A DNA stretch of 22,315 nt from the IMG/VR virus record IMGVR_UViG_3300006353_000009, positions 1 to 22,315 of that record; one strand, written 5' to 3'. Under the pieces are notes generated by a model. The model had not been told where the DNA came from, searched no databases, and saw only the letters and a program-made list of their open reading frames with translations. Shown piece by piece: positions 2,771 through 15,085 of this stretch. The stretch's first letter is position 1, and the number at the start of each line of letters is the position of its first letter. Source of the DNA: a virus. Position numbers and translations under genes: made by a program.

Positions 2771-3435
2771 CTATACCCTTCCTGCCGGGGGCTTGATCCC
2801 GAAGGCCTTAAACGTGTTCATGTCGGCGTCGCTGTACTGAACGAGTGGCGGTGGTGGCGGCTGCAACCAGTCGAGGCGATCGTCGATAGACCCGCCTCCC
2901 ATCGACGCCGCGATCAACGCCGCGGGCCGATGGAAGCGATGGAAGTCATCGAACGGATGCAGCTCGTAGAACGCGAGCCAGGCAAGGAACTCGGTCCGCG
3001 ACATGCTCGCTTTCCACTCGGCGACCGAACGGCCACCGAGCGCGAGGGCGATGACGTGCCAGAGCCAGTCGTCGCCCTTGGCGGCTAGTCGTTTCCCGTC
3101 TTCTCCTGCGCCTGCTGCTGCTGCTTGCCGTAGCCGTTGACTTCGAGAAGGGCCTTCACGATGCGCTGCATCACCGGGCGCTTGATGCGCTCGGCTTGCT
3201 CGACCGAGAGAGTCGTCTTGCCGTCTGGCTCGCACAACCCGAGTGCGACCAGGCGGGCCGAAGCCGTGGCGATCACGTCCTCGTCCGCCGAGCTGAGCCA
3301 GATCGCGTAGCGCTCCAGGGCGGTGTTCGATAGGTGCTTGAAATGCAGCACCTCCACCGAACCGTCGCCCATCTCGATAGACCGCTCCTCGACTTCGTCG
3401 CTGATGAAGAACTTGTTGTCCAGCATCGCGATCAC
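2771..3435 (-). CDS. tail assembly chaperone, long form (gpGT-like) by -1 frameshift
   Basis: Predicted frameshift product of about 221 residues: 115 from the short-form frame (to base 3091), then 106 from the -1 frame. The second part has no usable start of its own. It opens RLAAKGDDWLWHVIALALGG, continues with SRTEFLAWLAFYELHPFDD and ends in a Pro/acidic tail with YSDADMNTFKAFGIKPP. W-L-A-x-Y-x-L-x-P-F/W-D/G motifs are common in T domains of gpGT-type proteins. The T part is thought to bind the tail tube protein while G binds the tape measure. It ends just before the tape-measure ATG. Coordinates are of the total span; the frame changes at 3091. Confidence 0.8.
3046..3097 (-). promoter_or_regulatory. 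programmed -1 ribosomal frameshift site with downstream hairpin
   Basis: The minus strand carries G GGA AAC in the short-form frame (3097-3091), the X XXY YYZ slippery pattern, very close to the GGGAAAG of lambda. Slipping one base back gives GGG AAA and enters the T frame, bypassing the TAG at 3087-3085. A possible stimulatory hairpin follows: GGGCGACGAC (3077-3068) pairs with GTCATCGCCC (3055-3046), with one mismatch and a 12-base loop. The spacer of about 13 bases is longer than usual, so the hairpin's role is less certain than the slippery site. Confidence 0.8.
3085..3435 (-). CDS. tail assembly chaperone, short form (lambda gpG-like)
   Basis: A 116-residue protein in the position of the lambda gpG tail assembly chaperone, between tail tube and tape measure. 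It has an MLDNKFFISDEVEERSIEMG beta opening and a helical body (LERYAIWLSSADEDVIATAS). A Gln-rich stretch (KQQQQAQEKTG) near the C-terminus precedes the stop. GTG 3435 overlaps the tail-tube stop (GTGA); an ATG at 3426 is another possible start. A canonical slippery heptamer lies two codons from the stop, so part of the translation should continue in the -1 frame to make the longer form. The proteins help assemble the tail around the tape measure and are not expected in the virion. Confidence 0.8.
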   Translation of the reverse strand: MIAMLDNKFFISDEVEERSIEMGDGSVEVLHFKHLSNTALERYAIWLSSADEDVIATASARLVALGLCEPDGKTTLSVEQAERIKRPVMQRIVKALLEVNGYGKQQQQAQEKTGND

Positions 3436-3923
3436 GCCGGCGTGTAGGCGTGGAACGTCACCGAGCCCGAGCGCTGCAGCGTCAGCGTGCCGCGCACGAT
3501 CTCGTTGGTCGCAATGTCGATGTTCACGTCGGAGACGTACGCATCGAACACGAACGAGCTGCGATCAGCAGGCGCGAGCCACGAGCCATCGGTGTCGATG
3601 GTCGGATCGGTGCCCGACTCGCTCAGGCAAGCAATCCACTTCATCACGCGACCGTCCTGCTTGAAGGCGAACAGCTGCTGGTGCGAGCCGTCGCGCGGAA
3701 TCAGGTTGAACGGGACGGATACCTGGCCGGTGTTGCCGAGCCCGGCTTGGTAGGTTTTGTCGCCGACGGTGTCGAGGCACGTGTCCTCGATCTGGTCGCG
3801 CGCGCCGCCCAGGCCGGTGATCCCGGTCGGGCAAGCCATCTTCACGAGGGTGGGGTCGGTCGTCGTGATGTCGTCGACGACGAACAACTCGGTGCCTTGG
3901 GTGCGAACGGTGCCAACAGTCAT
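3432..3923 (-). CDS. major tail tube protein
   Basis: A 163-residue protein of the phage tail tube family (lambda gpV/HK97 gp12-like). Its strands and conserved features include LVKMACPTGITGLGGARDQI, then TCLDTVGDKTYQAGLGNTG, VSVPFNLIPRDGSHQQLFAF and a C-terminal TLTLQRSGSVTF. These proteins stack as hexameric rings to form the tail tube, and position just before the chaperone/tape-measure genes agrees. It has its own upstream hairpin, which fits a need for high expression. Absence of a sheath gene next to it supports a siphovirus. The TGA overlaps the GTG of the tail chaperone (GTGA). Confidence 0.88.
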   Translation of the reverse strand: MTVGTVRTQGTELFVVDDITTTDPTLVKMACPTGITGLGGARDQIEDTCLDTVGDKTYQAGLGNTGQVSVPFNLIPRDGSHQQLFAFKQDGRVMKWIACLSESGTDPTIDTDGSWLAPADRSSFVFDAYVSDVNIDIATNEIVRGTLTLQRSGSVTFHAYTPA

Positions 3924-3998: not shown

Positions 3999-5090
3999 CT
4001 ACGTCGTCTCTTCGCGATCGACAAACCAGTCGAACGTGAGTGCGATGCGGTACAGCTTCGTCTCGGGCTCGCGCAGGTCGATCGGCACGCCGGTCATGTG
4101 CGCGTGCGGCTCGATCGCGTCACGCACGGCAAGCGCGAGCAGCTCGACGCCGGAGTCGGTCTGGTGCCAGACATCGACCTGCACCGTGACGCGGTCGACC
4201 GGCGGCAGGTCGCTCAGGTTGTTCTCCGGGTCGCCGAAGACAACGAACCAGGTGACGTACGGCCTGCTGGCGTCCTGCGGCGCGTTGCCGTGCCGATAGA
4301 TGCGCGGCGGGTTCGTGCCGACGATCGCCTTAACCGCGACCGAAGCCTTCAGCGTCTGGAACACGGGTGGAAACATGGTGAGCCCGGGGGATGGTGGTGG
4401 GGGCGGCGGTGCTGGCGGTGGCGGTGCGGGTGGTGCTCCAGTCAGAGCAGCGGCCTCCGACAAGGTCAGGTTCTTGTAGAGGGCGATCCGGTCCACGTTC
4501 TTGCTGCCGTGGACATCGCCAGTAAAGGGGGCGATCACGCAGCGCACGAAGTTCATGACCGGCACCATGCCGATCAAGCCGGACGTCTCGCGCACCGTCC
4601 CGTCGACGATCAGCGAAACACTGCCATCCGCCGCCACGTAGAGGCCGAGCGTGTGGGTGCCAGACCCCGGAAAGAAGTTGGCGCTCTGCCAGTATTCGCT
4701 CGCGCTGTTAGCGTCGGCGTACGCAGTGCCGTCGCCAGACCAAAACACCTCCAGGGAGTCGACGCCGTCGCTGTACAGCGTGGCGGTGATCCATCCGTTG
4801 ACCGTGCTCCCGACATCGCCGGCCAGCAGCAGGAAGTACGGCAGCTCGTCGACGAACACCTCGTTCGCGTCGCCGTAGCCGAACAGGAACACCGACCCTT
4901 CACCGCTGCTGTAGTCGACCAGCGGCGGCACCAGGCGATTGCCAAGGATCTCGCCCTGGAGCTCCGGTGGAGGCGTCGGCGTCCTCCAGTTGCTGAGCCC
5001 GGTGATCGCCGGCGAAACGTCCATCGGCCGCGTCGTCGGATCGGTTCCGTCCGGGGCGGTGAAGGTGTCCAGCAGGATCGTCGTGGCCAT
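3999..5090 (-). CDS. lectin-like domain fused to DUF3168 tail-completion domain
   Basis: A 363-residue protein with two parts. Residues 1 to about 215 are a beta-rich, concanavalin-like jelly-roll candidate (HTLGLYVAADGSVSLIVDG, VDRIALYKNLTLSEAAALTG), the layout of LamG-like modules. A Pro-rich linker (PAPPPPAPPPPPPSPG) joins it to residues 239-363, a DUF3168 tail-completion domain: MFPPVFQTLKASVAVKAIVG, PYVTWFVVFG, VDRVTVQVDVWHQTD, DLREPETKLYRIALTFDWF. DUF3168 proteins usually are stand-alone at 120-140 residues and cap the tail tube. No Shine-Dalgarno precedes the ATG at 4376 that would start a stand-alone version, so the frame looks like a true fusion, placing a sugar-binding-type domain at the neck. 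Confidence 0.75.
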   Translation of the reverse strand: MATTILLDTFTAPDGTDPTTRPMDVSPAITGLSNWRTPTPPPELQGEILGNRLVPPLVDYSSGEGSVFLFGYGDANEVFVDELPYFLLLAGDVGSTVNGWITATLYSDGVDSLEVFWSGDGTAYADANSASEYWQSANFFPGSGTHTLGLYVAADGSVSLIVDGTVRETSGLIGMVPVMNFVRCVIAPFTGDVHGSKNVDRIALYKNLTLSEAAALTGAPPAPPPPAPPPPPPSPGLTMFPPVFQTLKASVAVKAIVGTNPPRIYRHGNAPQDASRPYVTWFVVFGDPENNLSDLPPVDRVTVQVDVWHQTDSGVELLALAVRDAIEPHAHMTGVPIDLREPETKLYRIALTFDWFVDREETT

Positions 5091-5103
5091 GTCGGGTCAG
5101 GCC

Positions 5104-5613
5104 CTACTTCTTGTTCTGCCGGGCCAGCTTGCGCACGATGCGATTGATGTCCCGGATCAGCTCGGTCTCGATCGTCGAGATCGCCTGGGCGCCCTTCGCG
5201 ATGACGGCTGGTCGAATCCACGGCTCGGCCGGCTGCTGCGACGTGCCGTACTCCAGCCAGGCGGCGGTCTTCGCAGCGGTCACGGGTTCCTTGCCGCCAC
5301 GCGGATAGAACTGCTTGCGGCGCACGCGCACCAGGTAGCGCTCGCCGTTCGTGCCGGTTGGCGGCTTGCCGCGCGACACGATCAGGTTCTTCAGCAGAAA
5401 GCCCGTCGACTCGCGCTTGCCGGTGCTGGTCGCGTTCGCGGTGACCGCCTGCAGGTTCAGCTTCTCCTGTTCGAGGATCACGCGCGCGCCCTTGCGCAGA
5501 GCGCGCTTCACCGGGCCGCCGCGCTTGCTGACGATCTCGGGCGGGAGCTGCTGCAGCGTTTGCAGCACGCCGTCCAGGCCCGTGAGCCGCATCTCAAAGA
5601 AGCTGCTGTTCAC
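5104..5613 (-). CDS. HK97 gp10-like head-tail / tail completion protein
   Basis: A 169-residue protein of the HK97 gp10 family, a neck or tail-completion component at the head-tail junction. The N-terminal MRLTGLDGVLQTLQQLPPEI and the following RALRKGARVILEQEKLNLQ match the family's helical opening. Later come PVTAAKTAAWLEYGTSQQPA and WIRPAVIAKGAQAI, which match the conserved F/L-E-Y-G-T and P-F/W-x-R-P-A motifs. GTG 5613 overlaps the stop of methyltransferase D (GTGA). The frame extends further upstream but those codons belong to the methyltransferase. Core morphogenesis genes therefore resume directly after the cassette. Confidence 0.85.
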   Translation of the reverse strand: MNSSFFEMRLTGLDGVLQTLQQLPPEIVSKRGGPVKRALRKGARVILEQEKLNLQAVTANATSTGKRESTGFLLKNLIVSRGKPPTGTNGERYLVRVRRKQFYPRGGKEPVTAAKTAAWLEYGTSQQPAEPWIRPAVIAKGAQAISTIETELIRDINRIVRKLARQNKK

Positions 5614-6257
5614 CGCGGCCACCTGTTTCGCTGGAAGGCGAAGGTGTGGATGTCCTCGCGCCCGGCGTCCATCTCGAACGTCTGCCGCTCCAGCAGCATG
5701 AACCCATGCATGTCCATCCACATCACGAAGCCGGCGGCGGTCCAGTAGTACAGGTGCTCGCCAGGTCGGTAGTGCTTCGACTGGCGGATGTGGTCGAGGT
5801 CGTCGAACAAAGGGATGCTGATGAACACCCGCGCGTGGAGCTGCACCTCGCGCAAGTACAGGCCCGGGTCTTCGACGTGCTCGATCACATCCCAAAACGT
5901 GTAGCCGCCGAACGCGTCGAGATTCGCGGCCCACAGGTCATTGCGCTTGAGCCACTCGATCGCAACAGGGTTCACGTCGAAGCCGAACGTGTTGGGCCGC
6001 TTCTTGATGAACTCGCCGGAGCCGATCCCGATGTCGACGACCGCGCTGCGCCCGAGGTACTTGTCGACGATCGCGATGCGCCCAGCATTGATCTCGCGCG
6101 CGATCTGCTGGTCCTCGTAGCTCAGGCACTTGCCGTAGTAGTCGGCGTCGTAGTTGATCACGTGCGAGCGGTCCAGTTGGTAGGCCACGCCGTGCTCCGG
6201 GCACAGCATCAGGTCGCGATCCCAGATGGCCGGGAACGTCTTCACGAAGCGATCCAT
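5610..6257 (-). CDS. class I SAM-dependent methyltransferase D (Methyltransf_23-like)
   Basis: A 215-residue protein, last of the cassette. The N-terminus has a CPEHG segment (19-23) before the SAM-binding motif I VVDIGIGSGEF (73-83), then FGFDVNPVAIEWL (91-103) and FWDVIEHVEDPGLYLREV (121-138), a family hallmark. HYRPGEHLYYWT (162-173) is a conserved-looking active-site stretch in sugar and lipid methyltransferases of this type. ATG 6257 overlaps the preceding stop (TGATG); an in-frame GTG sits at 6260. Its stop overlaps the GTG of the gp10-like gene, which ties the cassette into the tail-gene operon. Probable role: methylating a sugar or glycan made by the neighbouring transferases. Confidence 0.75.
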   Translation of the reverse strand: MDRFVKTFPAIWDRDLMLCPEHGVAYQLDRSHVINYDADYYGKCLSYEDQQIAREINAGRIAIVDKYLGRSAVVDIGIGSGEFIKKRPNTFGFDVNPVAIEWLKRNDLWAANLDAFGGYTFWDVIEHVEDPGLYLREVQLHARVFISIPLFDDLDHIRQSKHYRPGEHLYYWTAAGFVMWMDMHGFMLLERQTFEMDAGREDIHTFAFQRNRWPR

Positions 6258-6823
6258 CACTCGGCCGTCCAGAGCGCGAAGATGTCAATGACCCTGACCT
6301 GATGCTTCGGCAGCGTGTTCACAAAGTCATAGGTCGCGTTCAGGTGCGGCGCGCCGCGATCGTCGTAGTCGTGGAACAGCACCGTGCCGCAGCGCTTCAC
6401 CAGCTCGAAGTCGGCGGCCACGATCGCGCCGTCCTTCGCGCCGTCGATGAACGCGAAGTCGAACTCCAGCGTGTTGATCAAGGCCGCCTTCTCGGCGTTG
6501 TCCGCGACCAGGCGCAGGTCGATGTTGTCGATGCCGAGCGAGCGCCAGAAGGCGTGCCGGTCGTGCTTCTCGCCGAGCTGCTCCATGCGGCCGTGCTTGA
6601 GGTCGATGGTGATCACGCGCTCGCAGTACTGCGACATTTCCGCCGCGCCGACGCCGCGGTAGGTGCCGATCTCCAGCGCCGTCCGGTACTTGCCCGTCGA
6701 CAGGATCGACTGCAGCACGCCGGCGCCGCCGCGGATGCTGAGCACGCTTCGCCGCAGCATGTGCTGGTCGTAGGTCGCGACGATCTTGTCGCGCATCGGC
6801 GTGGTGAAGGCTTGATCAGGCAT
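6257..6823 (-). CDS. class I SAM-dependent methyltransferase C (O-methyltransferase-like)
   Basis: A 188-residue protein. Motif I is ALEIGTYRGVGAAEMSQYC (residues 49-67), motif II RVITIDLKHGRM (69-80), acidic post-motif FDFAFIDGAKDG (121-132), then KRCGTVLFHDYDD (143-155). The H-D-Y-D/DG-A-K pattern is that of Methyltransf_24 and related O-methyltransferases that use a metal near the acceptor. It shares the order and wording DNAEKA...LEFDFA...DG...KRCG.VLFH with methyltransferase A, so the two look like paralogues separated by gene B. I chose ATG 6823, which overlaps the preceding stop by eight bases; the frame stays open to 6868. Confidence 0.7.
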   Translation of the reverse strand: MPDQAFTTPMRDKIVATYDQHMLRRSVLSIRGGAGVLQSILSTGKYRTALEIGTYRGVGAAEMSQYCERVITIDLKHGRMEQLGEKHDRHAFWRSLGIDNIDLRLVADNAEKAALINTLEFDFAFIDGAKDGAIVAADFELVKRCGTVLFHDYDDRGAPHLNATYDFVNTLPKHQVRVIDIFALWTAE

Positions 6824-7292
6824 TGAAGGCCACCGTAGCGAAGGACCAGGCGAGATCGCGCTCGCCATGAATCACGTTGACGAAACCGAGGTCGGACAGG
6901 AGCCGGGCGATCTGCGCCGGCGCCCACGAGTGCAGGTGCTTGCGACAGTTCTGCGGGAGCCAGTACTCCATGTCCGGGTGCGGCAGGTACAGGAACAGCA
7001 CGCCGCCGGCGCGCAGACGCGAGCGCCAGTGCTCAAGCGCGGCCACCGGGTTGACCAGGTGCTCCAGGCAGTGGCTGCTGAACACGAAGTCGAAGGCACC
7101 GTGCGGCAGCTCCATCGCCTCGCCGCCCTCCTGGATGTCGACACCGATCGCGCCAGGCAGCGGCCACTTCCCGCAACCGACGTCGAGCCCGAGGCCCTTG
7201 CAGAACTTCAGCGCGGTGGGCGCGATGAACTGGCAGGCGTTGCCGTGCTTCAGGTACTCCGGGTACAACGACCCGCGGTAGTCGAAGATCAT
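6816..7292 (-). CDS. class I SAM-dependent methyltransferase B (Methyltransf_11-like)
   Basis: A 158-residue protein. Motif I is LGLDVGCGKWPLPGAIGVDI (residues 34-53), a very typical SAM-binding loop with the acidic strand-end residue. Motif IV-like FDFVFSSHCLEHLVNP (68-83) matches the H-x-L-E-H-x-x-x-P pattern of Methyltransf_11. Post-motif RLRAGGVLFLYLPHPD (93-108) follows. It ends with a strand-rich tail. The ATG overlaps the preceding stop in an ATGA junction. It is short for the family, about 60-80 residues less than many, which suggests a minimal catalytic domain. Likely methyl transfer to a small molecule or glycan, but the acceptor cannot be read from sequence. Confidence 0.72.
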   Translation of the reverse strand: MIFDYRGSLYPEYLKHGNACQFIAPTALKFCKGLGLDVGCGKWPLPGAIGVDIQEGGEAMELPHGAFDFVFSSHCLEHLVNPVAALEHWRSRLRAGGVLFLYLPHPDMEYWLPQNCRKHLHSWAPAQIARLLSDLGFVNVIHGERDLAWSFATVAFNA

Positions 7293-7832: not shown

Positions 7833-8522
7833 TCAGTCGTCCAGTACTGCACGCTCGCTCCCGAGGTTCTGCGAGAGCGCCCGGTCCACGATGATCGGGT
7901 GCTGCTCCATGTTGTTGATGAGCCATTCGCGCTCGCGCGCCGGCACGTGGCCGATCGGATCGGCAGGGTCGCCAGGCCGCCACTTCTCGTCGACGTTGTG
8001 CAGACCCGAGGCGAAGAAATCGAAGCCGGTGATGTACAGCGACGCCGGCCCGCACGACAGGATGTCGAGCAGCGCGGCGAAGCCGGTCGTCGGGATGTGG
8101 CCACCGAGCAGCTCGAAGCCGACCATGAAGTCGGCGATGCGCGGCACGAAGGTGTCGCAGAACCACCAGCCCGCACGCTGCCGGTAGATGTAGCGAAAGT
8201 CGACCCCGTGCATTCGTCCGTTCTGGCGGTGCCAGGCCGACTGCATGAATTGCGCGTTCGGACACTTGCAGACGCACAGGTCGACGCCGTCGCGCTTCAG
8301 CTCCTCCACGCTCTTGCGGATCGACGAACCGAAGAAGCTGTAGAAGACGTCGGTGCGCGCGCCGGCCGCCGGCGAGAGCTTGTAGTTGTTCACACGAACG
8401 ACCACGTCGTGGCTGTCGATGAACCCGGGCCGGTTGTCGAGCACGCCAGGCCCACTGCCAACGAGCGCGACGCGCCGACCTTGCAGCCGGCGCTGCACGA
8501 CCGTCCTATCGCAGAAAGCCAT
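7833..8522 (-). CDS. GT29-like sialyltransferase-type glycosyltransferase
   Basis: A 229-residue protein with the layout of GT29-type sialyltransferases. Sialylmotif L-like stretch: VALVGSGPGVLDN (residues 18-30) and GFIDSHDVVVRVNNY (33-47), matching V-G-N-S/G then I-D-x-x-D-x-V-x-R-x-N. Sialylmotif S-like stretch: PTTGFAALLDIL (144-155) then SLYITGFDFF (161-170), matching P-S/T-T-G with G-F. A late histidine region, HNVDEKW, may act as sialylmotif VS. It is shorter than eukaryotic enzymes and has no membrane anchor or signal. It overlaps the preceding gene by 17 bases. The donor may be CMP-sialic acid or a related acidic sugar such as legionaminic acid or Kdo, but this is family inference. 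Confidence 0.65.
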   Translation of the reverse strand: MAFCDRTVVQRRLQGRRVALVGSGPGVLDNRPGFIDSHDVVVRVNNYKLSPAAGARTDVFYSFFGSSIRKSVEELKRDGVDLCVCKCPNAQFMQSAWHRQNGRMHGVDFRYIYRQRAGWWFCDTFVPRIADFMVGFELLGGHIPTTGFAALLDILSCGPASLYITGFDFFASGLHNVDEKWRPGDPADPIGHVPAREREWLINNMEQHPIIVDRALSQNLGSERAVLDD

Positions 8523-9291
8523 CGATCACCGCCATCAGGTCCACCTTTCGCCAGTTGTCGACGACCGCCTTGGTCGTCTCTCGATGCAGCACCTTCTGCG
8601 GCGTGATCCGCCGCACGTACTGGTGCAGCGAGCCGAGCCCCTTGCTCGACCAGACAATCAGCGCCGGCTTGGAGAACGACTCGGCCAGCGGCACGATGAA
8701 CGAGCAGTAGCCGAGGAAGCCATCGGCCACCGACGCGACGTCGAGCAGCTGCCGCACGCTCGTCCGGTTCGCCAGATCGACGTCGATGCCGGAGAACTCG
8801 AACAGCGCCTGGCCGGCGCCCACCTGCACGATCAGCGCGCGCCCGCGCAGCGCGTCGATCGCCATCTGGATCACGCGGCAGTCGGGCAGCAGCTCGGCAC
8901 CGAAGCCGTCCGTGCGCCCCATCGGCACGCGCGGAAGCTGCACGCAGACGATCGGCCGGCCAGCGCCGCGCAACCGCTGCACCAGGTCCAAGTCGGTCGG
9001 CCGCCAGTCGAGCCGCAGGTCGACCGGCCCGCGAATGCCCGCCTGGATGCAGCAGTCCTCGAATTGCGTCGTGCCTTCCAGCCCCTTGCGCAGCGAGTAG
9101 TGCGCGACGATGTCGACGCCGGCGCGCGCGAACGGTGCCGTCTCGACCGCGCCGCCGAGCTGCGAGAAAACATCCGGCCAGGCCGTGCGGACCTTCACAC
9201 GCAGCCCGGTGTCCACGAGATGCCGCACGACGCTCTGCACGTACAGCGCATCGCCGAGCCCCATGCCGCCGCGCACGACCTTCGCTCTCAC
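8506..9291 (-). CDS. GT9/heptosyltransferase-like glycosyltransferase
   Basis: A 261-residue protein resembling ADP-heptose:LPS heptosyltransferases (GT9, GT-B fold) but shorter than the roughly 320-350 residues typical of bacterial ones. The N-terminal GGMGLGDALYVQSVVRHL (residues 8-25) is the glycine-rich acceptor-side loop. A second Rossmann half starts at PIVCVQLPRVP (113-123), continues to LIVQVGAG (153-160) and ends with SVRQLLDVASVADGFLGYCS (178-197), the donor-binding region where GT9 enzymes have a G-x-S/C motif before A-x-x-x-x-K-P. GTG 9291 overlaps the preceding stop (GTGA). The likely reaction is transfer of a sugar from a nucleotide-sugar; donor and acceptor are not identifiable. 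Confidence 0.68.
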   Translation of the reverse strand: MRAKVVRGGMGLGDALYVQSVVRHLVDTGLRVKVRTAWPDVFSQLGGAVETAPFARAGVDIVAHYSLRKGLEGTTQFEDCCIQAGIRGPVDLRLDWRPTDLDLVQRLRGAGRPIVCVQLPRVPMGRTDGFGAELLPDCRVIQMAIDALRGRALIVQVGAGQALFEFSGIDVDLANRTSVRQLLDVASVADGFLGYCSFIVPLAESFSKPALIVWSSKGLGSLHQYVRRITPQKVLHRETTKAVVDNWRKVDLMAVIDGFLR

Positions 9292-9893
9292 AGCGCCGCG
9301 CTCAGTTCGACGCGCCGAAAGCAGGTCAGCGCCGTGGCCCGGCTGCAGTTCAACACCTCCACCCCGCGCCCGGCCGCGAACTTCGCGACGTTCGCAAAGT
9401 GCCTCGGCCAGCGCTTCATCGAGGCCGCGTTTCCGAGCCCCTTGGGATGGTCGCCATGCCAGTGCACCGCGCCGCCCATCTTCTGGCAGTCGTAGCCGAG
9501 CAGCACGACGCGGCGCGCACGACCGATCACCGCCAGCGAGATCGCCGCCGTGCCCGAGTTGCCGAAGGGCGTGAACCAGGGCTGGTTGTGGAACGACTGG
9601 ACCCCCAGCGTCTTGCCGGCGATCGAGCAGGTGACGCGCTCGCCGCTGAACACGTCGTCGACGGACGGGCCGCCGTCTTTCGGGCGCTTGCCGTACTCCT
9701 TCCACCAGGCCGCGTCGTGTCCGAACAGCACCGAGGCCCACGGGCAGCGACGGTAGGTCGTGTTGGTCACGATCGTCGGATGGCCCGACGCGCGCACCGC
9801 CTCGCAGTCCTCCACCGTGAGGCTGGGACCGCTCGCGATACACACGACCGTGCATCCAATGAATCGCTCGGCCCAGTGCGGATCAGCCTTCAT
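9288..9893 (-). CDS. GPSL-motif transferase-like protein (DUF115/MptE-like)
   Basis: A 201-residue protein, first of the cassette. The N-terminal CIASGPSLTVEDCEA (residues 18-32) is a nucleotide- or sugar-nucleotide-binding loop like that of DUF115/MptE-like proteins and some glycosyltransferase relatives. Other conserved-looking segments are VTNTTYRRCPWASVLFGHD (42-60), GNSGTAAISLA (111-121), RVVLLGYDC (128-136) and HWHGDHP (144-150). The pattern of a Rossmann-like start, a central G-N/T-S-G motif and L-L-G-x-D resembles the sialyltransferase-like protein downstream, so a transfer role is plausible. The substrate is unknown. The ATG lies inside the end of the head-closure gene and its stop overlaps the next GTG. 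Confidence 0.6.
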   Translation of the reverse strand: MKADPHWAERFIGCTVVCIASGPSLTVEDCEAVRASGHPTIVTNTTYRRCPWASVLFGHDAAWWKEYGKRPKDGGPSVDDVFSGERVTCSIAGKTLGVQSFHNQPWFTPFGNSGTAAISLAVIGRARRVVLLGYDCQKMGGAVHWHGDHPKGLGNAASMKRWPRHFANVAKFAAGRGVEVLNCSRATALTCFRRVELSAAL

Positions 9894-10221
9894 TGACCCC
9901 GGACGTGCAGAGCAGCGTGATCTGCCCGATGCCGCTGTCCGGGTCCGGGATCACCGCCTCGATGTTGTAGATCGTGCCGCGATGCACGCCGCGCATGCTC
10001 GGCCGGAACCCGGAGCGGAAGCGCACGACGATGCGCGTGTTCACCTTCGACTGCACGGCCTGGGCCGCGATCAGCTCGCGCCCGGAGAGCGCGCTGATCT
10101 GCGCAGGGATGTTCACCATCACCGGCGTCCAGGCCTCGACCTGCGCGCCGTCCGAGTCCAGCTCGACGCCCAGCTCCTCGAACGTGACGCGGTGGCGCAG
10201 TCGACCAGCAGCGGGCCTCAC
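9883..10221 (-). CDS. head closure / head-tail adaptor protein
   Basis: A 112-residue protein of the phage head-tail joining family (SPP1 gp16-like, Phage_H_T_join), which seals the portal-connector channel after packaging. The signature is RLRHRVTFEELG at the start, an interrupted strand pattern including WTPVMVNIPAQISALSGREL, then IVVRFRSGFRPSMRGVHRG and YNIEAVIPDPDSG. I chose GTG 10221, which overlaps the preceding stop (GTGA); the frame is open further upstream to 10287 but those codons lie in other genes. The gene ends 11 bases inside the start of the glycosyl/methyl-transfer cassette. Confidence 0.82.
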   Translation of the reverse strand: MRPAAGRLRHRVTFEELGVELDSDGAQVEAWTPVMVNIPAQISALSGRELIAAQAVQSKVNTRIVVRFRSGFRPSMRGVHRGTIYNIEAVIPDPDSGIGQITLLCTSGVNEG

Positions 10222-10304
10222 GGCAGCATCCACAGAAGCGAGAGGGCCAGCGCCGCTGCCCTCCACGGGTTGAACCACACGGCCCACGCAAGCGCGACCA
10301 GCAT
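10218..10304 (-). CDS. 28-residue hydrophobic microprotein (single membrane segment)
   Basis: A tiny gene, 28 codons plus stop, MLVALAWAVWFNPWRAAALA then LSLLWMLP. It fills the gap between the connector and the head-closure gene exactly: its ATG overlaps the connector stop (TGATG) and its TGA overlaps the next GTG (GTGA). Two hydrophobic stretches flank FNPWR, giving a single likely membrane segment or a short hairpin. The tight coupling at both ends argues that it is translated. The function is unknown; a membrane-inserted accessory, or a coupling peptide whose translation delivers ribosomes to the next gene, are both possible. Confidence 0.55.
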   Translation of the reverse strand: MLVALAWAVWFNPWRAAALALSLLWMLP

Positions 10305-10921
10305 CACGCCATCCCCAGTCGCACGCGCAGCGGGCGCATCAAGGCCTCGGCACCATTGGGAATGCTGATCATCGCCAGCTCGGTCGAATCCTCGCGATTG
10401 CGAAACAGGTGCCCGAGGATCAGCAGGATCGCGGCGCGGATCGCCTTCGGCATCGGCTCGCCGCCGTCGCTGTCGACGCCATAGCCGGCCAGGTAGCGAA
10501 TCCGCACCAGGTTCGTCGCCGGGACCACGACCGGCCACGCGGTGGCGACCGGGCGCACGCGCGCCGGCAGGCGGTAGTTGTCGAGCACGAACGCATCGGC
10601 GTCGAGCTCGTCGTCGCTGCCTTCGCCCCACGAGATGCTCTGGATCTCGCGCACCGGGCCCATCGGCAAATCGATCGGCAGGCCGTCGAGGCTGGTGCTG
10701 AGCGGGAACTCGTCCAGCGCCACCTCGAGTACGCGGGTCGACAGGGACAGGCCGAGGAAGTTCTCGCAGTGCTCGCGGGCGGCGGCGAGCCAGCCCTCGA
10801 TCATCACGTCGTCGATCGGGTCGACGTCGCTGTCCTCGTACGGCTTCGCTTCGAGATGCGCGCGCGCCTCCTCGATCGAGATCGGCTCGGCGATCGGCGC
10901 CTGGATAACCTTCGGCGTCAT
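10304..10921 (-). CDS. head-tail connector protein (phiE125 gp8 / HK97 gp6-like)
   Basis: A 205-residue protein of the phage head-tail connector family (phiE125 gp8/gp6-like), which forms the ring bound beneath the portal. Recognisable features: the N-terminal SIEEARAHLEA; the helical segment VMIEGWLAAAREHCENFLG; a beta region (VLEVALDEFP, LPMGPVREIQSISW); VRIRYLAGYG; and the C-terminal helix PKAIRAAILLILGHLFRNRE. The frame is open upstream to 10990, but ATG 10921 (MTPKVIQAPI) overlapping the previous stop in ATGA gives the family-consistent N-terminus. Its own stop overlaps the start of a tiny hydrophobic gene. Confidence 0.88.
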   Translation of the reverse strand: MTPKVIQAPIAEPISIEEARAHLEAKPYEDSDVDPIDDVMIEGWLAAAREHCENFLGLSLSTRVLEVALDEFPLSTSLDGLPIDLPMGPVREIQSISWGEGSDDELDADAFVLDNYRLPARVRPVATAWPVVVPATNLVRIRYLAGYGVDSDGGEPMPKAIRAAILLILGHLFRNREDSTELAMISIPNGAEALMRPLRVRLGMA

Positions 10922-12525
10922 GGTGCGGCCCTGCCATTGCTCAGGCCGCGCGAGGGCGCGTCGCGCCCGCGTTTGACCGCCAGGCGCCAATGCGCGGACG
11001 GACCGGCCGGTGGTTCATCGGTGTCCTGCTTCGCGATCCAGTAGCCGCCGCCGTACGTGTAGCCATCGCCGGCCTCGGCGTGCACGCCCTTTCGATACAC
11101 GCCGCGGTCGATCGGCATGCCGGCCAGCACCAGCTCGCGCGAGATGCGCCGCTCGCCCGCGCAGAGCGTGATCGTCAGCACGCGGCCGTCGAGCGCCAAC
11201 TGCAAGTCGTCCGGCGTGAAGCCGTCGCGTCCATCCTTGGCCTCGGGCATGCGGTCGACGACGCGCTGGAGCGTCTCGCCGGCACGCCGCTCGAAGTCCA
11301 GCGCCCAGCGCGCGACCTCGGCCTCCAGCGCCGGGCGGACATCGTCGAGCGTGACGCTCGCGCCATCCTTCGCCTTCGGGATCTGCGCGACTGCATCGGC
11401 AACCGCGCGCTGCACCTCCACGCGCAGCACCTCCGGGTCAAGCGTTTTCGTGGTTTCGGGCAATTCGGCGACAGCGCTTGCAACCGCGGCGCGGATGACG
11501 TCGGGGTCCGCATCCTTGCCGTCGCGTGGCACCGGCAGCGCAGCGACGGCGCGCTCGACCTCGGCGCGCAGGAGAGCCGGATCGGCATCCTTCCCGTTCT
11601 GCGGCGGCGGCACCAGGGCAACCCGGCGCGCGACTTCGACGTCGACCAGGCCGGCGAGCTGCGAGCGCATCGTTTCGATCTCCAGGCGCATCGCCGCGTG
11701 CATCTGGTCCGAGTGGTGGACCAGCGCGGCCTGCGCGCGCTCGACCAGGCCGGGCAGGATTTCGTCGACGCGCTGGCGAATCAGCTCGGGATCAAAGTCC
11801 TTACCCGGGTCGCCCTTCGCCGGGGGCGGCAGTGCAGCGACCGCCGTCGCGGCAGCGGCAGCGATCTGGCCCGACAGCTCGACGAGGTCGACCGAGCGGC
11901 CGGGTTCACCGTCCTTCGCCTTGGGCAGCGCGGCCACCGCATCGGCCACCAGGCGACGAATCAGCTCCGGGTCGGCATCCTTGCCCGGCTGCGGCGCCGG
12001 AAGCGCGCTGACGGCCTTTGTGACCGCCTGTGGCACCGCTTCTGCGACCGCCGACTCGACGAGCGCGGCGATCTGCGCCGGGTCCGCGTCTTTGCCAGGC
12101 GCGCCGTCCTTCGGCGCCGGGATCTGGTCGAGCGCCGCCGTCACCTTCGCGAGCACGACCTCGGCGATGGCGTCGGCGTCGGCATCCTTCCCGTTTTCTG
12201 CCCTGGGAAGGCCCGCCACGGCCCGCGTGACAGCTTCTTCGAGCACGGCAGGGTCGTAGTCCCGACCGTCCCTCGGGACCGGCAGAGCGCCCACAGCCTT
12301 CGCCGCCGCCGCCGAGATTTCGCCGGCCAGCGCGACCAGGTCGACCGACTCGCCGTCCTTCGGCTTCGGCAAGGCCGCGAGCGCCTCGGCGACCATGCGG
12401 CGCACGTTCTCGGGCTGGCGCTGATCCATCTCGTCCAGCCGTGCCACGAGCGGGCGCAAAGCGCGCGCGACGTGGCCCTTCACTGACGCGATCAATGCAT
12501 CCGCAATGGCGTTGAGGTCAGTCAT
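10918..12525 (-). CDS. long repeat fibre-like protein with a C-terminal carbohydrate-binding-like domain
   Basis: A 535-residue protein. After a helical start (MTDLNAIADALIASVKGHV) it has about twelve units of roughly 30-35 residues. Each unit holds a helix of Val/Ala character followed by a P-x-P/A-x-DGKDADP linker (PVPRDGKDADPDVIR, PAPKDGAPGKDADPAQI, PAPQPGKDADPELI). The C-terminal 80 residues (VYRKGVHAEAGDGYTYGGGYWIAKQDT and SAHWRLAVKRGRD) match the G-x-x-Y-x-x-G-D-x-V-x-Y-x-G-x-x-W pattern of small carbohydrate-binding modules on phage fibres. The layout suggests a rod-like trimeric fibre with a sugar-binding tip. Its stop overlaps the connector start (ATGA), so a fibre sits inside the head-tail joining operon. 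Confidence 0.75.
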   Translation of the reverse strand: MTDLNAIADALIASVKGHVARALRPLVARLDEMDQRQPENVRRMVAEALAALPKPKDGESVDLVALAGEISAAAAKAVGALPVPRDGRDYDPAVLEEAVTRAVAGLPRAENGKDADADAIAEVVLAKVTAALDQIPAPKDGAPGKDADPAQIAALVESAVAEAVPQAVTKAVSALPAPQPGKDADPELIRRLVADAVAALPKAKDGEPGRSVDLVELSGQIAAAAATAVAALPPPAKGDPGKDFDPELIRQRVDEILPGLVERAQAALVHHSDQMHAAMRLEIETMRSQLAGLVDVEVARRVALVPPPQNGKDADPALLRAEVERAVAALPVPRDGKDADPDVIRAAVASAVAELPETTKTLDPEVLRVEVQRAVADAVAQIPKAKDGASVTLDDVRPALEAEVARWALDFERRAGETLQRVVDRMPEAKDGRDGFTPDDLQLALDGRVLTITLCAGERRISRELVLAGMPIDRGVYRKGVHAEAGDGYTYGGGYWIAKQDTDEPPAGPSAHWRLAVKRGRDAPSRGLSNGRAAP

Positions 12526-14017: not shown

Positions 14018-15085
14018 TCAGATGAGAGGCGCCGAGGTCGACACCCAGGGGAGCCACACGTGCCCGTACTTCACGTAGTTAAACGGCGTCGTGTTCGGGA
14101 TCGTGCTGCCCTGCGCGGGCGCACCCGAGGCCCACAGCAAATCGGCCACGCGCCCCCTTAGGTCGGTGTTCGTGTAGTCCATGACCCAAATCGGAAAGCC
14201 GCTGTAGGTCGTGTCGCTCGCATTGGCCGTCGTGTTCAGAGTGACGGTGATGCTGTTGGCTGCCGCACCGGCATTCGAGAGTGTGGGGGCCGGGCATGCA
14301 AGAACCGGCGCGCCGGAGCCGCTGTAGTTTCGCCCTTTGACAGTGACATTCGTATTGCCGCACAAGTTGTTGGCACTGCTCACCGCCGAGGTGAAGTTGC
14401 CCTGGCTACCGCTTGAGTTAACGACGCCGCCGCCACCGAAGAAGCTGATCGTCGAGTAGTTGTCGGCGCTGTGCGCGCCCTGCAGTTTCGTCACGCCGAG
14501 GATCGCGTACGCGCCGTTGTTCGTGTCGAAGGTCTCGATCCACCAGAAGTCACCGCGTGTGGACAGGTGTAGGTTCTCGCGGTGCGTCTTCGTGATGCTG
14601 TTGTCGTTGAACGTCGCGCCCGAGTAAGACCATTCGTCCGTCAGCGTCGGGCGCGCGGTCGTCGAGCCGTTCGTGCTCAGCGTCTTGCCGAGGATGAGGT
14701 CGCACTTGCCGTTCGTCGCGTTGCCGAAATCGACAATCAGGTAATACGAGCCGAGCGCTGATGGCGATTGCAGCAAGGCCCACGAGCGGCCGGTGCCGGC
14801 GGTCGTGTTCGCACCGAAGACCCAGTCGTTTGCGGTGAACGCGCCGCTGCCGGTCAGGTGCAGGCGGTCGGTCGTGTCGGCGGTCAGGTTGCCGGCGGTG
14901 CCATCGGTCGAGCCGCAGGTGCGAACGACTGACCAGTTGCCGGTGTTGCTCGCGAAGCCGAGCCCGGTATTGCCAACCAGCGAGGCGAGCAGATACCACA
15001 GCTCCCACTTGCTCTGCGTCGCCGCGTCGGCGGCGCTCGCTACCGCGCGGTTGACATCGCACGCCCAGGTCAGTTCGGTCGCCAT
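14018..15085 (-). CDS. beta-rich virion-type protein of unknown family
   Basis: A 355-residue protein with no family I can name. It is rich in Ser, Thr, Asn, Gly and aromatic residues and poor in Lys and Glu, as is usual for extracellular or virion beta structures. The N-terminal segment WACDVNRAVASAADAATQSK WELWY looks helical; then come many short strand-like stretches (LIVDFGNATNGKCDLILG, GDFWWIETFDTNNGAYAIL), and a C-terminal HVWLPWVST. Its Thr/Asn/Gly-rich codon use is distinct from the Ala/Arg-rich neighbours, hinting at an imported module. The position in a block of fibre-like genes suggests a decoration, head-fibre or surface protein. Function not assignable from sequence. Confidence 0.65.
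   Translation of the reverse strand: MATELTWACDVNRAVASAADAATQSKWELWYLLASLVGNTGLGFASNTGNWSVVRTCGSTDGTAGNLTADTTDRLHLTGSGAFTANDWVFGANTTAGTGRSWALLQSPSALGSYYLIVDFGNATNGKCDLILGKTLSTNGSTTARPTLTDEWSYSGATFNDNSITKTHRENLHLSTRGDFWWIETFDTNNGAYAILGVTKLQGAHSADNYSTISFFGGGGVVNSSGSQGNFTSAVSSANNLCGNTNVTVKGRNYSGSGAPVLACPAPTLSNAGAAANSITVTLNTTANASDTTYSGFPIWVMDYTNTDLRGRVADLLWASGAPAQGSTIPNTTPFNYVKYGHVWLPWVSTSAPLI

Follow-up and report, generated by a model that had tools for sequence, protein, structure and literature searches.

The window analysed here is a virus record of 22,315 bases, whose structural genes lie on the minus strand. At 5090-3999 we found a single open frame of 363 codons, in which a tail terminator of the PF11367 (DUF3168) family is preceded by an additional N-terminal domain and a polyproline linker. 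The fused gene, its parts and the surrounding genes are as follows:

3085-3435, minus strand: tail assembly chaperone (PHROG 344, E=1.4e-8)
3432-3923, minus strand: major tail (tube) protein (PF16460, E=1.2e-49)
3999-5090, minus strand: fused gene, 363 aa, predicted jelly-roll domain, polyproline linker and PF11367 tail terminator
4002-4376, minus strand: tail terminator domain, residues 239-363 (PF11367 and PHROG 78; equivalent start codon in relatives)
4377-4445, minus strand: polyproline linker, residues 216-238 (from the sequence; a linker of like kind in the phage contig L229)
4446-5090, minus strand: predicted concanavalin-A/LamG-like N-terminal domain, residues 1-215 (39% identical homologue in L229; AlphaFold2 model)
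5104-5613, minus strand: HK97-gp10-like/Neck1 tail completion gene (PHROG 5, E=4.7e-14; start set by homology)
5610-6260, minus strand: methyltransferase of a glycosyl/methyl cassette (PF13489; PHROG 6564, E=4e-47)
6257-6868, minus strand: methyltransferase of the cassette (PF13578, E=7e-8)
6873-7115, minus strand: third methyltransferase domain of the cassette, part of a gene (PF13489, E=1.2e-11)
7833-8522, minus strand: weak resemblance to glycosyltransferase family 29 in the cassette (PF00777, E=0.0087, below the cut-off)
9288-9893, minus strand: alpha-2,3-sialyltransferase-like gene of the cassette (PHROG 4603, E=5e-49)
9883-10287, minus strand: head closure protein (PF05521 and PHROG 25)

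Elsewhere in the window, 10918-12525 encodes a 535-aa protein with many GKDADP-type repeats, a collagen-like or fibre resemblance and no NCBIfam match, and 14018-15085 encodes a 355-aa protein of structural appearance for which Pfam, PHROGs and NCBIfam gave no significant match.

The C-terminal part of the fused protein has both the sequence and the position of a tail terminator. It matches PF11367 over residues 242-358 (Pfam, E=2.3e-17), with 63.7 bits against a cut-off of 24.5, and the 'tail terminator' family PHROG 78 over residues 239-361 (E=6.8e-19). The gene is located between the gp10-like/Neck1 gene and the lambda-like tail tube gene, which is the usual place of a terminator. Residues 1 to about 215 are beta-rich, and for residues 1-220 no significant Pfam, PHROG or NCBIfam match was obtained. 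The linker consists chiefly of proline and alanine (…TGAPPAPPPPAPPPPPPSPGLT). GC3 is 0.88 before the linker and 0.90 after it, as in the neighbouring genes, and hence both halves look coding.

With an extra domain of 215 residues and a linker, the protein departs from the usual single-domain PF11367 form of about 120 aa. Relatives of the terminator domain were gathered from viral contigs and genomes, giving 93 partly redundant loci; identity is about 75% in the closest, which include one in a Burkholderiaceae MAG (L010). The added domain is absent from all 93 loci, some of which are redundant; their terminators open with a start codon equivalent to residue 239 or lying a few residues from it. 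Upstream continuations of the open frame that we inspected (e.g. in L011, L030, L031 and L035) cross the gp10-like gene in another reading frame. Across 399 genomes from the order to which L010 belongs we found 30 PF11367 matches above the cut-off, with open frames of up to 282 aa; the upstream part of the longest frames is, as far as checked, not coding-like. Halomonas phage QHHSV-1 and Moraxella phage Mcat13 each have an annotated terminator that is a gene of its own. The preliminary description of this locus had taken DUF3168 proteins to be normally small and single-domain; the related siphophage terminators collected here measure about 120 aa and lack the extension. Because the extension is absent from these relatives, the domain appears to be a gain in the lineage of the window.

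Among the relatives, differing small genes occupy the gap that separates the gp10-like gene from the terminator gene: an HNH-endonuclease-like ORF (L010:4420-4914, minus strand), a 44-aa lipoprotein-like ORF (L003:3866-3997), a short ORF in Halomonas phage QHHSV-1 (L263:2265-2489) and a 116-aa ORF (L026:2651-3001). Judged by gene content, this gap looks like an insertion hotspot.

The same domain plan occurs in a diverged IMG/VR phage contig of 59.8 kb (L229/L254), which was among the matches listed when the first motif of the N-terminal domain, DTFTxxDGT, was used for a scan. Its fusion is a 380-residue protein with a homologous N-terminal domain, a polyproline linker (PPPPSPPPPPPSP) and a PF11367 terminator (E=4.8e-9), the latter matching PHROG 347, unlike the PHROG 78 terminator of the window. 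From a reading of the frames, the gene follows a gp10-like gene and precedes the tail tube and tape measure genes. In a Moraxella phage, the relatives of this terminator are encoded on their own and measure about 115 aa. The PHROG 347 profile has 394 positions and the L229 match spans only 5-117; therefore, long terminators extended at the C-terminus may exist in the PHROG library. The bases before the start codons of the two fusions are also alike (window 5091-5112, L229 reverse strand 2763-2784; AAGAAG..GGGCCTGAC.CG), with about 0.7% of random pairs reaching an equal score.

The N-terminal domains of the two fusions are 39% identical over 242 columns (E=6e-36). An origin of the window frame in two unrelated frames joined by chance read-through, assembly error or pseudogene formation would agree with the absence of the extension in relatives, but the independent contig, with its identical domain order and this degree of identity, and the coding-like GC3 of both halves in effect refute it. 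The fusion of the extra domain to the tail terminator is real and not an artefact. In global comparisons, the jelly-roll domains share 44% identity and the terminators 26% (blastp E=0.007), while the gp10 proteins share 23% and the head closure proteins 33%; the tail tube proteins gave no significant match. Among the proteins compared, the connector alone (42%) is as similar as the N-terminal domains. Since the N-terminal domains are far more alike than the terminators that carry them, the domain looks like a transferred module, which is the simplest reading of these identities; alternatively, it may be under stronger constraint than the terminator.

The number of such fusions found is two. 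A profile of the N-terminal domain (alignment A2) detected both known domain-bearing records, and beyond L229/L254 no further homologue was found in viral contigs, phages, plasmids and about 800 genomes. A search with the second conserved motif, GDANE..V..LP, returned L229 and unrelated frames and nothing else. One weak genome match (L103) was rejected as a chance match antisense to a long gene; two others (L255 and L256) were likewise taken as chance, the antisense evidence concerning L103 alone.

We modelled the N-terminal domain with AlphaFold2 from an alignment of 13 rows, including 11 LamG-type proteins selected by motif. With several MAFFT methods, the domain's NRL and VDG landmarks fell on the corresponding landmarks in most members of a set of 12 LamG-type phage proteins. 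Two other alignments were dropped: in a full-length alignment with LamG-type rows, MAFFT set most rows on the terminator domain, and in the first N-terminal alignment the VDG landmark was misplaced. The model has a mean pLDDT of 55; confidence is moderate, at 60-87, for the greater part of residues 80-170 and 199-218. A Foldseek search gave 53 PDB matches at E<=0.001, including CBM40, laminin LG, sialidases and pentraxin. The best were CBM40 sialic-acid-binding modules (E=6e-5), followed by laminin LG (E=1e-4), CBM40 being one among many concanavalin-A-like folds in this list. Several named matches in the Foldseek viral library are concanavalin-A-like or LamG proteins, and VIA-align placed a galectin at the top (Z 12.9, rmsd 2.6 Å over 127 residues). 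The model thus has a jelly-roll fold, and this match is not fully independent because LamG-type proteins selected by motif were part of the underlying alignment. Run on the single sequence of the whole protein, AlphaFold2 reached a pLDDT of 39.6, and the resulting model gave no significant fold match. A generic LamG-type profile scored the domain at 17.6 bits, within the range of shuffled sequences that keep DTFTxxDGT (maximum 21.1).

The jelly-roll reading is supported by the matches of the model to CBM40, laminin G and galectin folds, and the N-terminal domain is likely a jelly roll of the concanavalin-A/LamG type. The proposal of a jelly-roll domain joined to a tail terminator thus held, with the architecture recurring in L229 and the model matching concanavalin-A-like lectin folds. 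As for the predicted order of the N-terminus, the model does not show a domain disordered as a whole, but residues 21-79 stay at pLDDT <50. No sugar-binding residues were identified in the N-terminal domain. Jelly-roll folds serve as protein contacts too.

In solved structures, terminators form a hexameric ring capping the tail tube, with the sheet lining the channel and the helices on the outside (PMC10721106, PMC12886913, PMC11784142). By analogy with these relatives, the PF11367 domain of the window is expected to form a hexameric ring, which would cap the tube and dock to the head. The jelly roll would hang from this ring by its polyproline tether, and six copies would project at the neck exterior. 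The T5 terminator p142 is soluble with an N-terminal tag (PMC11784142). An outward exit is likely but uncertain, since the N-terminus of the T5 terminator contributes to the subunit interface (PMC11784142). Carbohydrate-binding modules at the neck of lactococcal phages are present in many copies and bind weakly to host cells (PMC6669499). The most likely role of the six copies in the window would be weak, multivalent and accessory binding to a host surface glycan. The extra domain is probably a genuine appendage that faces outward from the virus neck, because a distantly related virus has the identical domain combination. For the complete picture, a two-domain terminator ring showing six outward jelly rolls for accessory host-glycan binding, we see about an even chance; hexameric display, outward position and glycan binding are inferred.

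Concanavalin-A-like folds are frequently structural, and the domain could accordingly be a neck decoration that clamps or shields the junction of stopper, terminator and tube and binds no glycan. A role in strengthening the neck has been proposed for the terminator decoration proteins of phage 812 (PMC12886913), and the jelly-roll collar of Milano has no known function (PMC10491603). However, the long proline tether of both the window and L229 suits projection better than a tight clamp, and close relatives manage without the domain, so that we regard a purely structural role as rather unlikely. Doubtful to a greater degree is continued use of the ancestral start at residue 239, by which the ring would consist of the short terminator alone or of a mosaic of short and long forms. 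A methionine is kept at the terminator boundary in both fusions (SPGLT-MFPPVF in the window, PPSP-MPTLSV in L229), and judging from the relatives the one at 4376 is the retained ancestral terminator start. On inspection of the sequence, though, the CCATCCCCCGGGCTCACC upstream of this ATG holds no Shine-Dalgarno-like stretch, just as the preliminary description had stated for the internal start, nor does one precede the methionine of the L229 fusion; the codons upstream of both are C-rich proline codons. RNA structure around the internal start showed nothing unusual (z=0.93).

A further suggestion was that the gene lies just after the glycosyl/methyl cassette and that both act on the same glycan. 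The cassette itself is real, with its sialyltransferase-like gene and three methyltransferase domains. The fused gene does not follow the cassette directly, as the gp10-like gene (5104-5613) intervenes. A domain that binds a glycan put on virion or host by the cassette of the phage itself would fit with the sialic-acid-binding CBM40 modules heading the Foldseek list and with the presence of the PHROG 4603 sialyltransferase-like gene in both domain-bearing records. On the other hand, this gene is also present in 9 of the 12 related records in which the domain is absent, the remaining three being short fragments (7.5-9.6 kb), and Methyltransf_23 genes occur in 10 of the 12. Moreover, CBM40 is only one of many matching folds and a galectin comes first by VIA-align. 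The cassette does not travel with the domain, since these domain-less records carry its genes; a specific link between the two found no support, and on the present gene content the cassette belongs to the phage group and not to the N-terminal domain. We consider the cassette-made glycan a very improbable ligand. Across all records searched, the PHROG 4603 gene is present in 11 of 14 and is thus nearly universal in the phage group, with methyltransferases usually nearby.

The fusion has its closest counterparts in several known systems. The neck passage structures (NPS) of lactococcal 936 and P335 phages also place carbohydrate-binding modules at a siphophage neck, one of them shown to bind the host, and have diversified through domain exchange (PMC6669499, PMC10684548). 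Unlike the window protein, an NPS is a separate collar protein of 500-900 aa with a BppU-like N-terminal ring domain and coiled coils, whereas in the window the domain is fused to the N-terminus of the terminator itself on a polyproline linker, is LamG-like and was modelled with no long coiled coil. 'Evolved' Dit and TpeX-extended major tail proteins likewise carry a sugar-binding-type module on a core tail ring protein (PMC6669499), but at the tail tip or along the tube and not at the head-proximal terminator. With gpU-type PF11367 terminators (PHROG 78 and 347) the window protein shares the terminator domain, the operon position and the expected hexamer, while the siphophage relatives collected are single-domain. 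Larger terminators are known chiefly where a sheath is contacted (PMC11784142). In the multi-domain terminators of the myophage 812 (gp99) and of PVC16, the added domains either touch the sheath or are a second copy of the terminator fold (PMC12886913, PMC11784142); the window has the genes of a sheathless tail and its added fold is lectin-like. The Milano collar gp13 surrounds the neck with a jelly-roll domain resembling glycan-binding proteins (PMC10491603), but is a separate 15-fold protein of a myophage. Overall, the fusion is a variation on known neck decoration and not a new kind of system. In our literature search of open-licence papers, no description of a lectin-fold domain on a siphophage tail terminator was found.

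The tail terminator sits at the tightly packed head-tail joint and is not usually viewed as a site of host contact. The presence of the module on two different terminators suggests that the ring can bear displayed binding domains and may even profit from them, and six extra densities around the neck are predicted. Tentatively, and at slightly less than even confidence, we propose that a siphophage can turn its terminator ring into a six-armed adhesion collar by means of a mobile lectin-fold module and a polyproline tether, without a collar gene. Grafted carbohydrate-binding modules are known from Dit, the tube protein, the receptor-binding protein and separate neck collars (PMC6669499, PMC10684548). 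To this list of tail proteins (Dit, the tube protein, the NPS and the receptor-binding protein), the terminator would add a further site.
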